Source of the DNA: Candidatus Atribacteria bacterium 1244-E10-H5-B2
GTDB lineage: Bacteria > Atribacterota > JS1 > SB-45 > 34-128
DNA length: 16,434 bases
Assembly: GCA_003575245.1 (NCBI GenBank)
Contig: NMQN01000617.1
Span: 1 to 16,434 of the forward strand
Direction of reading: 5' to 3'
This document shows, one piece after another, positions 5,503 through 16,434 of the stretch. A program made the translations under genes and the position numbers. The notes under the pieces were generated by a model that made no database searches, was not told where the DNA came from, and was given only the letters and a program-made list of their open reading frames with translations. Position 1 is the stretch's first letter. Each line of letters starts with the position of its first letter.

Positions 5503-5532
5503 TTTGTGATAAAATGCAAATATCTTTAAGAA

Positions 5533-5610
5533 TAAAAAAAGGGGGACGGTTCTTTTTTTACCATCTTTTTAAAATAATGATTAGAAAAAAGAACCGTCCC
5601 CCTTTTTTTA
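5533..5610. repeat. Palindromic repeat, full copy 2 (GGGGACGGTTC family)
   Basis: Perfect 26-bp arms at 5533-5558 and 5585-5610 around a 26-nt loop. The arm core is AGGGGGACGGTTCTTTTT, matching copy 1 at 2290-2374 except for one extra G and loss of the outer GCGT. The loop has a T-rich then A-rich composition like that of copy 1. It lies between the permease stop and the SD (5612-5620) of the methyltransferase, so on the + strand it could terminate the upstream transcript. Confidence 0.9.
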
Positions 5611-7839: not shown

Positions 7840-7867
7840 TTGACAAAATTGTTTAAAGAGGTAGAAT
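7840..7867 (+). promoter_or_regulatory. Promoter of the RRM-gene leader (copy A)
   Basis: TTGACA at 7840-7845 and TAGAAT at 7862-7867 with a 16-bp spacer. The same TTGACA-16 bp-TANNNT layout stands before leader copy B at 16277-16304, which supports this -10 over the nearby TATAAT at 7867-7872 (21-bp spacer). The transcript would carry a leader of roughly 210 nt before the RRM start codon. Confidence 0.75.
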
Positions 7868-7893
7868 ATAATAGACAAAGTTAATATAAATGG

Positions 7894-7993
7894 CTGGTCC
7901 TTCTTACTAAAAAGAGATGCTAAAAACAATCCATTAATCCCTGAAAACAGAGATTGTTTATGAGGGATCTCTTGTGTTTTAATAATGTTATCG
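7894..7993 (+). promoter_or_regulatory. Structured leader RNA element, copy A (candidate cis-regulatory RNA)
   Basis: Leader core repeated at 16336-16434. The 5' block 7894-7931 matches copy B at 33 of 38 positions, and the 3' block 7965-7993 is identical over 29 nt. Two helices are possible in both copies: outer AAGAGAT (7912-7918) with ATCTCTT (7967-7973), and inner AACAATC (7925-7931) with GATTGTT (7952-7958). The apical loop (20 nt here, 19 in copy B) is not conserved, whereas the 8-nt internal segment length is. Conservation of stems and junctions with a free loop is the pattern of a functional RNA. I do not recognise it as a known riboswitch class. Confidence 0.8.
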
Positions 7994-7997
7994 TTAA

Positions 7998-8079
7998 GAG
8001 GTTGGAATCTCCGTTTTTGTTTCTACCTCCTACAAGAAACGTTATTGGACTTAAGAGAAATAATAACGAAAAGGAGGTA
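7998..8079 (+). promoter_or_regulatory. SD-sequestering switch upstream of the RRM gene
   Basis: The SD AGGAGGTA (8072-8079) is perfectly complementary over 8 nt to TACCTCCT (8024-8031). A nested 7-bp hairpin, CGTTATT (8040-8046) with AATAACG (8062-8068), brings the two together, so the ribosome site can be masked. An alternative partner exists: GAGGT (7998-8002) plus GGAA (8004-8007) can pair with ACCTC (8025-8029) plus TTTC (8020-8023, one G-U pair), which would free the SD. The two states exclude each other. This is inferred from complementarity only. Confidence 0.7.
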
Positions 8080-8085
8080 TGAAAC

Positions 8086-8346
8086 ATGGAAGGTAGTAAA
8101 TTATATGTAGGTAATCTTAAATATTCTGTAACTAATGAGCAACTAACAGAATTATTCTCAGCTCATGGTGAAGTTAAGAGTGTTAACATCATTGAAGGTA
8201 AAGGCTTTGGATTTGTAGAAATGTCTTCTTCGGAAGAAGCTGAAAAGGCCAAAGAAGCTTTAAATAATACCGATTTCGATGGTCGTCCTTTAAAGATTGA
8301 CGAAGCCCGTCCACCGAGACCAAGAAGCGAATATCGTAGATACTAA
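8086..8346 (+). CDS. RRM-type RNA-binding protein (Rbp-like)
   Basis: Protein of 86 residues consisting of one RNA-recognition motif and a short basic tail. RNP2 is LYVGNL (6-11), RNP1 is KGFGFVEM (39-46), and the second helix and last strand (EEAEKAKEALN, GRPLKIDEARP) complete the fold. The loop before RNP1 is short (NIIEGKGFGF); most bacterial Rbp proteins have about six more residues there. The tail PRPRSEYRRY is Arg-rich and may add nonspecific RNA contacts. Such proteins are abundant, often cold- or stress-regulated RNA binders. SD AGGAGGTA lies 6 nt before the ATG and can be masked by the leader, so translation is likely regulated, possibly by temperature or by the protein itself. It is monocistronic: the next gene has its own riboswitch. 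Confidence 0.93.
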   Translation: MEGSKLYVGNLKYSVTNEQLTELFSAHGEVKSVNIIEGKGFGFVEMSSSEEAEKAKEALNNTDFDGRPLKIDEARPPRPRSEYRRY

Positions 8347-8429: not shown

Positions 8430-8458
8430 AAATGTATTTAAAAAATAGAATAATACAA

Positions 8459-8541
8459 TAGGGGAGCTTATTAAGGCTGAGAGTGTTTTTAGTAAACAGA
8501 CCCTTAAAACCTGATCTGGGCAATACCAGCGTAGGGAATTA
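8459..8541 (+). promoter_or_regulatory. TPP riboswitch (thi box aptamer)
   Basis: Conserved TPP aptamer elements appear in order: GGGGAGC (8461-8467), GGCTGAGAG (8475-8483), CCCTTAAAACCTGATCTGG (8501-8519), ATACCAGCGTAGGGAA (8523-8538). These form the pyrimidine-binding CTGAGA bulge and the pyrophosphate-sensing P4/P5 arm. The aptamer precedes thiT-thiN, both thiamine genes, and is followed by a terminator, so TPP is expected to switch transcription off. A good promoter is not obvious; TAGAAT at 8446-8451 is a possible -10. Confidence 0.95.
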
Positions 8542-8560
8542 AAACATCAGCGTTTTTATT

Positions 8561-9906: not shown

Positions 9907-10251
9907 TTACAAACCCAAACTAATTCTTATAGCTTCATCTATTTTCTTCATGATTACATCATCGAAATGCTCGAGTTTTTTAACTATTCGTTCTTTTGAT
10001 ATGGTTCTTATTTGATCACCTTGAATAATACTATCTAAATTTAATCCTCCTTTTTCTTTCTTTACCCAGACATCTGTAGGATATTCTTTAGATATTTCTT
10101 TTTGGCTGGTTATAATTGCTATAATAGTTGTTGGGGAAAATTCATTCCCAATATCATTCTGAATTATAACACAAGGTCTTATTTTTCCGGTTTCTGAGCC
10201 CTTAACCGGTTCTAAATCTACTAAAATAGTATCCCCTCTTTTAATATCCAT
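9907..10251 (-). CDS. mazF: mRNA interferase toxin MazF/PemK (NdoA-like)
   Basis: Toxin of 114 residues, close in length and sequence to Bacillus NdoA (EndoA), which cleaves single-stranded mRNA at short specific sequences. Family features are KRGDTILVDLEPVKGSE at the start, IRPCVIIQNDIGN (24-36) with catalytic R25, T48 in IITSQ as the second catalytic residue, and QIRTISKERI (80-89). All key residues are present, so it looks active; the cleavage sequence cannot be predicted. The ATG follows the antitoxin stop by 3 bp, so the pair is translationally linked, antitoxin first. On the opposite strand to its neighbours and with its own promoter, it is an independent module. Confidence 0.95.
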   Translation of the reverse strand: MDIKRGDTILVDLEPVKGSETGKIRPCVIIQNDIGNEFSPTTIIAIITSQKEISKEYPTDVWVKKEKGGLNLDSIIQGDQIRTISKERIVKKLEHFDDVIMKKIDEAIRISLGL

Positions 10252-10254
10252 TTT

Positions 10255-10488
10255 TTAAACATTTTCTCCATCGGTGTATTTAAAGTCTTCACATATTTTA
10301 AGATTTAATTTAGCTTTTGCTTTATATCCTTCAGCTAACTCTTTTTTAAGTTTTTCCTCTTTTATTTTACTGGCATATACTTCAGTTGCTTCCCGGACAA
10401 ATTCACTCAAATTCATATTTAATTCTTTGCTGGTTCTTTTTATTTCATATAATAAATTATCCGAGAAGTTTATATTTATTCTTTTCAT
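10255..10488 (-). CDS. mazE: Ribbon-helix-helix antitoxin of the mazEF pair
   Basis: Protein of 77 residues. The N-terminal ribbon KRININFSDNLLYEIKR (2-18) and the helices with LNMNLSEFVREATEVY (23-38) form a ribbon-helix-helix DNA-binding domain, as in EndoAI-type MazE antitoxins. The Lys-rich C-terminus (about 42-77) is the likely toxin-masking tail. It should neutralise MazF and repress the operon. AGGTG lies 8 nt upstream of the ATG on the minus strand. Two near-identical 12-bp direct repeats between promoter and gene may be its operator. Confidence 0.88.
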   Translation of the reverse strand: MKRININFSDNLLYEIKRTSKELNMNLSEFVREATEVYASKIKEEKLKKELAEGYKAKAKLNLKICEDFKYTDGENV

Positions 10489-16218: not shown

Positions 16219-16276
16219 AATAATTAGTGTAAAATTTAGTAGGGTGGTAAATAAATAAATTATTAGTTAAATAAAT

Positions 16277-16304
16277 TTGACAAAATTATAAACTGTGTTA
16301 TACT
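16277..16304 (+). promoter_or_regulatory. Promoter of leader copy B
   Basis: TTGACA at 16277-16282 and TATACT at 16299-16304 with a 16-bp spacer, the same layout as at 7840-7867. It stands about 60 bp after the dehydratase stop and 32 bp before the conserved leader block. No clear terminator for the dehydratase transcript lies between 16219 and 16276. Confidence 0.8.
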
Positions 16305-16335
16305 TGTGAAGTTAAAGTTTGTTAGATGAAAACGA

Positions 16336-16434
16336 CTGGCCTTTGTTACTGAAAAGAGATGCTAACAACAATCAACCGAGTTCTTTATAACAGATTGTTA
16401 AAAAAGGATCTCTTGTGTTTTAATAATGTTATCG
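16336..16434 (+). promoter_or_regulatory. Structured leader RNA element, copy B (cut by window end)
   Basis: Second copy of the element at 7894-7993. Outer stem AAGAGAT (16354-16360) with ATCTCTT (16408-16414), inner stem AACAATC (16367-16373) with GATTGTT (16393-16399), apical loop of 19 nt unlike that of copy A. The last 29 nt (16406-16434) are identical to copy A. The gene it controls lies beyond the right edge; by analogy it should be another small RRM protein. Confidence 0.8.

Follow-up and report, generated by a model that had tools for sequence, protein, structure and literature searches.

A candidate two-state cis-antisense leader of bacterial RRM-protein mRNAs

Two copies of a leader-like sequence lie in the window (the whole stretch of Atribacteria DNA analyzed here, 16,434 nucleotides), the first of them ahead of a gene for an RRM protein, which raises the question of what kind of RNA this leader is and how it might act on the gene that follows. 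A sequence-only reading had taken positions 7894–7993 and 16336–16434 for a duplicated, structured leader of no recognized class and had considered riboswitch, protein-binding, and thermosensing roles for it.

Leader copies and neighboring features in the window

The claimed duplication, with 33 identities in a 38-nt 5′ block and an identical 29-nt 3′ block, was confirmed. The 5′ blocks (7894–7931 and 16336–16373) differ at 5 of 38 positions as counted by eye, and the 29-nt block GGATCTCTTGTGTTTTAATAATGTTATCG occurs exactly at 7965–7993 and 16406–16434, with no third site elsewhere in the window even when 3 mismatches are allowed (shuffle mean 0.00, n = 200). A 44-nt repeat of the two leader copies shows 84% identity, and a similar promoter-like stretch with TTTGACAAAATT precedes both (repeat D1, 81%), in agreement with the common promoter layout that had been described. 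The two nested stems, AAGAGAT/ATCTCTT and AACAATC/GATTGTT, could indeed be drawn in copy 1 and copy 2, but by eye they were seen in leaders from Atribacterota and not in those from other phyla; in minimum-energy folds they appeared for copy 2 alone and were absent for copy 1. Over the spans originally reported, the copies are not unusually stable (z −1.3 and −1.5, with 18 and 13 of 200 shuffles folding equally well).

Those spans proved too short. The leader unit begins near 7888 and extends beyond the RRM start codon (8086) into the coding sequence. Most of the 3′ block common to both copies, although real, forms one strand, the 5′ one, of a longer helix, the other strand being located downstream. 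The principal feature of the leader, a cis-antisense strand together with a mimic of the start site, falls outside 7894–7993. The parts of the leader were as follows.

7840–7867, plus strand: promoter-like stretch (TTGACA 7840–7845, TAGAAT 7862–7867), by consensus only; similar stretch before copy 2
7888–7897, plus strand: AAATGGCTGG box near the presumed transcript 5′ end, from sequence
7912–7973, plus strand: Atribacterota-type 5′ hairpin (AAGAGAT 7912–7918 with ATCTCTT 7967–7973; AACAATC 7925–7931 with GATTGTT 7952–7958), from sequence and by eye in Atribacterota relatives
7969–8057, plus strand: P1ext helix (CTCTTGT 7969–7975 with A8049-C8050 and AAGAG 8053–8057), from null-model pairing
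7981–8046, plus strand: P1 helix of the ON fold (AATAATGTT 7981–7989 with AACGTTATT 8038–8046), from null-model pairing
7998–8007, plus strand: start-site mimic GAGGTTGGAA, forming P2 with 8021–8029, from null-model pairing and duplex energy
8010–8031, plus strand: cis-antisense strand against the RRM Shine-Dalgarno/start region, from complementarity and duplex energy
8040–8068, plus strand: hairpin inside the OFF helix (CGTTATT 8040–8046 with AATAACG 8062–8068), from sequence and predicted fold
8072–8100, plus strand: target, comprising the Shine-Dalgarno sequence AGGAGGTA (8072–8079), ATG (8086–8088), and codons 2–5, from sequence and pairing
8086–8346, plus strand: RRM protein gene, 86 amino acids (PF00076, 77.3 bits)
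16276–16434, plus strand: second copy, with promoter-like stretch and leader as far as the P1 5′ strand (16422–16430), from repeats; the window ends before the mimic

The Atribacterota-type 5′ hairpin and P1ext compete for CTCTT, and the hairpin at 8040–8068 occupies the 3′ strand of P1. The window antisense duplex was calculated at −22.2 kcal/mol (whole-upstream z −2.8). Copy 2, incomplete at the window end, gave a match to the covariance model described below at E 0.12 only. In two relatives (L005 and L006), a leader matching copy 2 runs into an RRM gene, and L006 also has a stretch upstream of its leader like that of copy 2. The window RRM protein is 94% identical to the proteins of two records labeled Atribacteria.

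Several other features were met in the window. An ordinary TPP riboswitch (RF00059, 72.9 bits) at 8450–8554 is followed by genes for a thiamine transporter (Thia_YuaJ) and thiamin pyrophosphokinase. Two long, near-perfect hairpins (2290–2374 and 5532–5609), both with GGGGACGGTTCT, are perhaps copies of a small mobile repeat and attract spurious microRNA-type Rfam matches; a similar stretch, GGGACGGTTCTTTG, lies upstream at locus L028. A PemK/MazF-like toxin gene (PF02452) occupies 9907–10488 on the minus strand, and the small ORF upstream of it, perhaps an antitoxin gene, has no Pfam match.

Distribution of the leader and its link to RRM genes

Scanning genome contigs at the protein level gave 145 relatives, the best 80 of which were kept as loci, and the upstream DNA of these RRM loci contained a common core far outside Atribacterota. 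A covariance model, R1 (105 positions, 27 pairs), was built from 34 leaders. At E ≤ 0.01 it matched immediately ahead of the gene in 46 of the 80 RRM loci, 33 of these 46 being in the seed; the other matches at this level fell in the window, on the reverse strand of L069, at a second site in L032, and at a position some 300 nt upstream of the L080 RRM gene. The second site in L032 (256–360) is a weaker class I match (30 bits; class I denotes the R1-type leader) followed by an RRM-like start, and this locus has two neighboring RRM genes, each apparently with its own leader.

Whole-genome searches with R1 covered sets of 50, 148, 247, 19, 40, 25, 60, 6, 60, and 41 genomes (696 in total, some searched twice) and gave matches in 12, 1, 8, 8, 3, 20, 1, 3, 1, and 1 genomes, respectively, at a cut-off of E 0.1 for the 50-genome set and 0.01 for the others. 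The 25-genome set had been picked for holding RRM loci (20 with a match), and in the sets of 148, 40, 60, 60, and 41 genomes one match in each was the center genome itself. Sensitivity was lower in the large sets (148 and 247 genomes), where 16–26 candidates were scored per genome, so absence of R1 there is weak evidence. The distribution across genomes was patchy.

An RRM reading frame was visible just downstream in 66 of the 70 loci from the genome searches, and the remaining four could be accounted for: the contigs of L114 and L126 end within the gene start (L126 reads MQVSKLYVGNL), L117 represents L111 read from the other strand, and L134 coincides with L057, at which the protein scan confirmed the RRM. 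Twenty-four of the 70 loci lay outside both the seed and the 80 protein-scan loci. Carrier records were titled Atribacteria, Zixibacteria, Nitrospirota, Deltaproteobacteria, Desantisbacteria, Neomarinimicrobiota, Nitrospinota, Cloacimonadota, KSB1, Eisenbacteria, Spirochaetes, Levyibacteriota, Actinomycetes, and Dehalococcoidia. The core stands before RRM genes in records labeled with a dozen or more phyla, although carriers are mostly MAG contigs whose labels may be wrong; two are titled chromosomes (CP070770 and CP070702).

No Rfam 15 family matched the leader (window at E ≤ 1; 20 loci at gathering cut-offs), and a search of one leader at E ≤ 10 returned three weak microRNA or sRNA matches and nothing else. 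The proposal of a conserved leader RNA of unrecognized class, tied to RRM genes, therefore stood: the covariance search found many copies rather than the two in the window, and no match to an existing Rfam family was found. A metabolite riboswitch was disfavored, as no riboswitch model matched the leader and RRM genes alone lay downstream in the loci checked; nothing found favors the small-molecule riboswitch that had been considered. Viral or plasmid carriage found no support in the sequences searched, with no R1 match at E ≤ 1 in an IMG/VR relative (L159) or in six plasmid RRM loci (L160–L165, of 198 matching plasmid records), and with an exact-pattern scan of viral contigs empty. Two of the plasmid RRM genes adjoin translation genes, rpsU in Tolypothrix (L164) and infA in Aquabacterium (L165). 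No description of the leader, or of an antisense-plus-mimic layout, was found in the open-access literature searched.

R1 misses 34 of the 80 RRM loci, and 11 of these 34, all labeled Atribacteria, carry a different leader (class II), with P1 near CAGUAAUAU/AUGUUACUG and an antisense stretch of 25–30 nt. The class II antisense reached z ≤ −3 against shuffled start regions in 10 of 11 loci, forming one uninterrupted helix in L023. The other 23 R1-negative loci gave no antisense signal (z between −1.5 and +1.5); four of them (L036, L052, L065, and L080) had weak R1 scores (E 0.04–0.55) without the signal. With no structure given, RNAalifold predicted the antisense:start helix from 10 class II sequences, while 21 class I sequences yielded P2 and neither P1 nor the antisense helix.

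An RRM protein at E ≤ 1e-8 was present in 22 of 50 Atribacterota genomes, at 1–4 copies each. The survey of this phylum comprised 44 RRM places, weaker paralogues excluded, of which 30 had loci and 28 were assessed (two were without a start by the pattern used). By their P1 strands, 17 of the 28 belong to class I and 11 to class II, and the antisense reached z ≤ −2 in 23. As judged from complementarity, a second Atribacterota leader class that R1 does not detect keeps the antisense in a different sequence, which suggests that the design of an antisense to the gene's own start has been retained where the rest of the leader was swapped.

Predicted pairing of the antisense strand with the mimic and the gene start

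The class I core has the consensus UUCUCUUGUGUUUAAUAAUGUU, a variable joint, and then AGAGGUUAGAAUUGCUAUCUUGCUUCUACCUCCAAAAGAAACAUUAUUGGACAGAGAGAA, and the gene start reads GGAGGUUAGAAUGCAAGGUAGU in many of these leaders. The ON-type fold consists of P1ext, P1, and P2, the last formed by the upstream mimic GAGGUUAGAA with UUCUACCUC. The OFF-type fold pairs UUCUACCUCC with the Shine-Dalgarno sequence and the preceding loop UUGCUAUCUUGC with the stretch from the last base of the start codon to codon 5. The hairpin loop and the anti-Shine-Dalgarno strand (consensus UUGCUAUCUUGCUUCUACCUCC) are together antisense to the gene's own Shine-Dalgarno sequence, start codon, and codons 2–5, and the mimic is the alternative partner of the same strand; because this strand is common to both folds, the folds are mutually exclusive. 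In their 5′ regions, class I leaders such as L031, L107, L152, and L155 contain a AAAGGRGGTGRTAA stretch, often about 46 nt before the core, together with the AAATGGCTGG box; AAAGGRGGTGRTAA is an extended complement of the 16S rRNA tail. The box was present at ≤2 mismatches in 33 of 65 leaders (raw count, no chance control). Four loci (L045, L076, L107, and L108) have a longer stretch between core and start codon (73–89 nt), with an extra hairpin by eye.

For the pairing tests, the 70 matches of alignment A3 were reduced to 65 class I leaders by dropping three opposite-strand matches, the duplicate core L121, and L114 (no start codon). Dereplicated subsets were used for the comparisons of own with permuted partners (50 leaders), bulge conservation (52), and loop against coding start (46). 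Own partners beat permuted ones for the antisense:Shine-Dalgarno duplex (p = 0.0024) and for the mimic:antisense duplex (p = 0.014), relatedness among the 50 leaders not being removed, while the mimic:Shine-Dalgarno control was no better than permuted (p = 0.93). An upstream stretch with a Shine-Dalgarno-like element was rejected as partner of the antisense strand in the same 50 leaders (p = 0.78). The loop:coding start duplex averaged −9.4 kcal/mol, a value equaled by none of 300 sets of shuffled loops (average −4.6 kcal/mol), with own partners again better than permuted (p = 0.024); along the gene, the two start-codon windows (−8.9 and −9.4) exceeded all others (−1.3 to −5.2) in these 46 leaders. 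Taken singly, 51 of 65 class I antisense strands reached z ≤ −2 and 35 reached z ≤ −3, leaving 14 above −2.

Pairing in the 65 leaders was then compared with 1000 simulations under a null model that preserves the tree, the types of substitution, and the rate of each column, in two runs, the second including coding columns, for which the start codons of L053 and L067 were re-anchored. P1 was paired at 0.90 against 0.76 under the null (0/1000 in the first run, p = 0.001 in the second) and P2 at 0.86 against 0.69 (0/1000 in both). The outer six pairs of P1ext were paired at 0.72 against 0.37 (0/1000, first run), and P1ext again gave 0/1000 in the second run; its inner three pairs showed no excess over the null (p = 0.128, first run). 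For the antisense:Shine-Dalgarno core, p was 0.020 and 0.034 in the two runs; in the second, loop:coding pairing gave p = 0.001, and the whole antisense:start pairing 0.854 against 0.732 (0/1000). Slid controls were not significant in the first run, nor were loop slides in the second except slide −3 (p = 0.029). The P1, P2, and P1ext columns came from a structure-fitted alignment, whereas the Shine-Dalgarno and coding columns were not so fitted; on the unfitted MAFFT alignment A1, the helices were 61–90% paired.

The compensatory changes that the sequence-only reading had looked to were present in sum and not in any single pair. Cells with both sides changed numbered 37 against 18.2 for the whole antisense:start pairing (p = 0.031) and were above the null for P1ext (p = 0.031); no such excess was seen for the loop alone (p = 0.083), the Shine-Dalgarno core (0.088), P1 (0.56), or P2 (0.14). 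In an R-scape-like test of all column pairs, no single covarying pair was significant (best E about 5). Loop position 55 was associated with the third base of codon 3 (Fisher p = 0.0029) and position 52 with that of codon 4 (p = 0.0023), these two pairs having been picked from 12 after the counts were seen and kinship being ignored. The antisense:start, P1, and P2 pairings are preserved beyond a null that keeps the phylogeny. This preserved pairing points to two mutually exclusive conserved pairings, one of them over the ribosome-binding site.

The proposed switch, its trigger, and known systems

From the complementarity and the preserved helices, we consider it probable that the RRM mRNA has in its leader a cis-antisense translational switch with two states. 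In the OFF state, the antisense strand would pair with the Shine-Dalgarno sequence, start codon, and first codons and so block initiation; in the ON state, with P1 and P1ext closed, the antisense strand would be captured in P2 by the mimic, which nearly duplicates the start-site sequence, and the start would be left free. The ON helices are transcribed ahead of the start site, so the ON fold would be able to form first. In the cell, the folds would interconvert, their balance being set by the RRM protein at the mimic and/or the start site, and/or by low temperature. Ordinary conserved intergenic sequence, kept by descent and horizontal transfer without regulatory structure, could account for the patchy distribution, the strong primary conservation among related sequences, and the lack of an individually significant covarying pair, but several helices pass tests that keep the phylogeny and R1-negative class II holds the same antisense, and we judge this explanation highly improbable. 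Rather improbable, too, is a sensor of ribosomes in which a ribosome or 30S subunit, recruited by a 5′ element (AAAGGRGGUGRUAA) or by a short reading frame upstream, would bias the downstream fold. Of the 65 leaders, 35 contain the element, a complement of the 16S tail, at ≤3 mismatches (raw count, no chance control), often some 46 nt ahead of the core, and in some leaders a short frame reading MKWLAN... can be made out by eye; the element was nevertheless not found in 30 of 65, some with promoter-like sequence abutting the core, and the upstream stretch pairs with the antisense strand no better than when permuted. The short frame is absent from the Atribacterota leaders read, and a short upstream peptide was for this reason rejected as a universal feature.

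As to the trigger of the cis-antisense switch, we lean to the RRM protein itself, with temperature second, and both may act; the autoregulatory or cold-shock role suggested by the sequence-only reading is thus still the likeliest guess. Autoregulation, which we favor tentatively and at somewhat under an even chance, would have the RRM protein bind a GAGGUUAGAAU-like element of the mimic and its own start site, so that abundant protein shifts the fold and lowers its own synthesis. In many leaders the mimic resembles the start site, although this likeness also follows from their common pairing partner; protein-bearing Atribacterota genomes have 1–4 copies, and all 28 loci assessed there have one of the two leader classes. 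A Bacteroides RRM protein binds GUAGGAUA (PMC12119571), and the mRNA of such a protein has a binding site for it (PMC11697453). The motif resemblance is a lead only and not evidence of binding, and the nucleotide bulging from the antisense pairing is weakly conserved in mimic and start site (0.37 and 0.50 bits; 52 dereplicated leaders).

Alternatively, the many-pair ON fold might be favored in the cold and the OFF antisense helix in the warm; the RRM protein would then be induced by cold, much as a cold-shock protein is through the cspA leader. Three fold-energy calculations were carried out, the second and third of them on 63 leaders (two of the 65 dropped). In free ensembles, mean antisense:Shine-Dalgarno pairing rose with temperature (0.36, 0.42, and 0.56 at 10, 37, and 60 °C), as this trigger would have it, but mean Shine-Dalgarno accessibility stayed flat (0.25, 0.28, and 0.26), which counts slightly against a thermal trigger. 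With fixed helices, OFF was preferred in 49 of 63 leaders at 37 °C, with no consistent temperature slope (a fall in 25 of 63). When each macrostate was obtained by forbidding one of the partners, the median ON/OFF difference was −0.8 kcal/mol at 37 °C, and from 5 to 65 °C 41 of 63 leaders leaned toward OFF, 17 crossing from ON to OFF and 1 in reverse; the sequences are related and so not independent, and energies far from 37 °C are extrapolated. For the window leader, ViennaRNA placed nearly everything in the OFF fold at 10–60 °C, and the macrostates were likewise OFF throughout. These models make bistability of the leader plausible, L107 being one leader with a predicted balance, and cold-ON behavior is suggested by just one of the three calculations. 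Temperature was rejected as a certain trigger since the calculations disagree, and in spite of the requirement of the Synechocystis RRM protein Rbp1 for cold adaptability (PMC9333190), we regard a thermal trigger as on balance unlikely. With distinctly more doubt than belief, we envisage a dedicated, self-tuned RRM switch in which a start-site antisense and a protein-recognized decoy would be combined with cold responsiveness, as an RRM counterpart of the cspA circuit, in at least two leader classes little alike outside the antisense.

Little is known of how bacteria use and regulate RRM proteins. The leader constitutes an RNA family open to model-based detection across many uncultured lineages and opens a way to further RRM genes under the same control; the switch would supply a precise mechanism (antisense versus start-site mimic) and a candidate natural binding site for RRM proteins. 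Among known RNAs, Chlorobi-RRM (RF01697) is, like the R1 leader, a candidate cis-regulatory RNA named for such genes. Identity with it was rejected on model score, as its 73-position model exceeded the 45-bit cut-off in 0 of 15 RRM-holding genomes; weak matches occurred in 13 of the 15 (best 29.3 bits), with no RRM signature motif near them in the 8 stretches fetched. The candidate motif is listed from Chlorobi alone (Weinberg 2010, PMC2864571).

Like the RRM leader, the cspA leader belongs to the gene of a small RNA-binding protein; the gene codes for a cold-shock protein, not an RRM, and no antisense-plus-mimic layout is known in that leader. No cspA family match was found at the leader (window; 20 loci; one leader at E ≤ 10). 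Escherichia coli cspA has a cis thermosensor in its leader, and CspA stimulates its own mRNA in the cold (PMC9947658). R1 found nothing at the three cyanobacterial plasmid RRM loci L162–L164. Cyanobacterial rbp genes are cold-regulated, with control in the 5′ UTR. Their Rbp proteins are single-RRM proteins, one of them with a role in the cold (PMC9333190). The Bacteroides proteins RbpA/B/C (RRM-1) and Porphyromonas gingivalis RbpPg1 are bacterial single-RRM regulators like the window protein, which RbpPg1 (7jly) matches at 5.7e-12; the passages covered on them describe no comparable leader, and RbpB binds the rbpB mRNA itself (PMC11697453). The general kind to which the RRM leader would belong, in which the ribosome-binding site is concealed or exposed by the leader, is already known.
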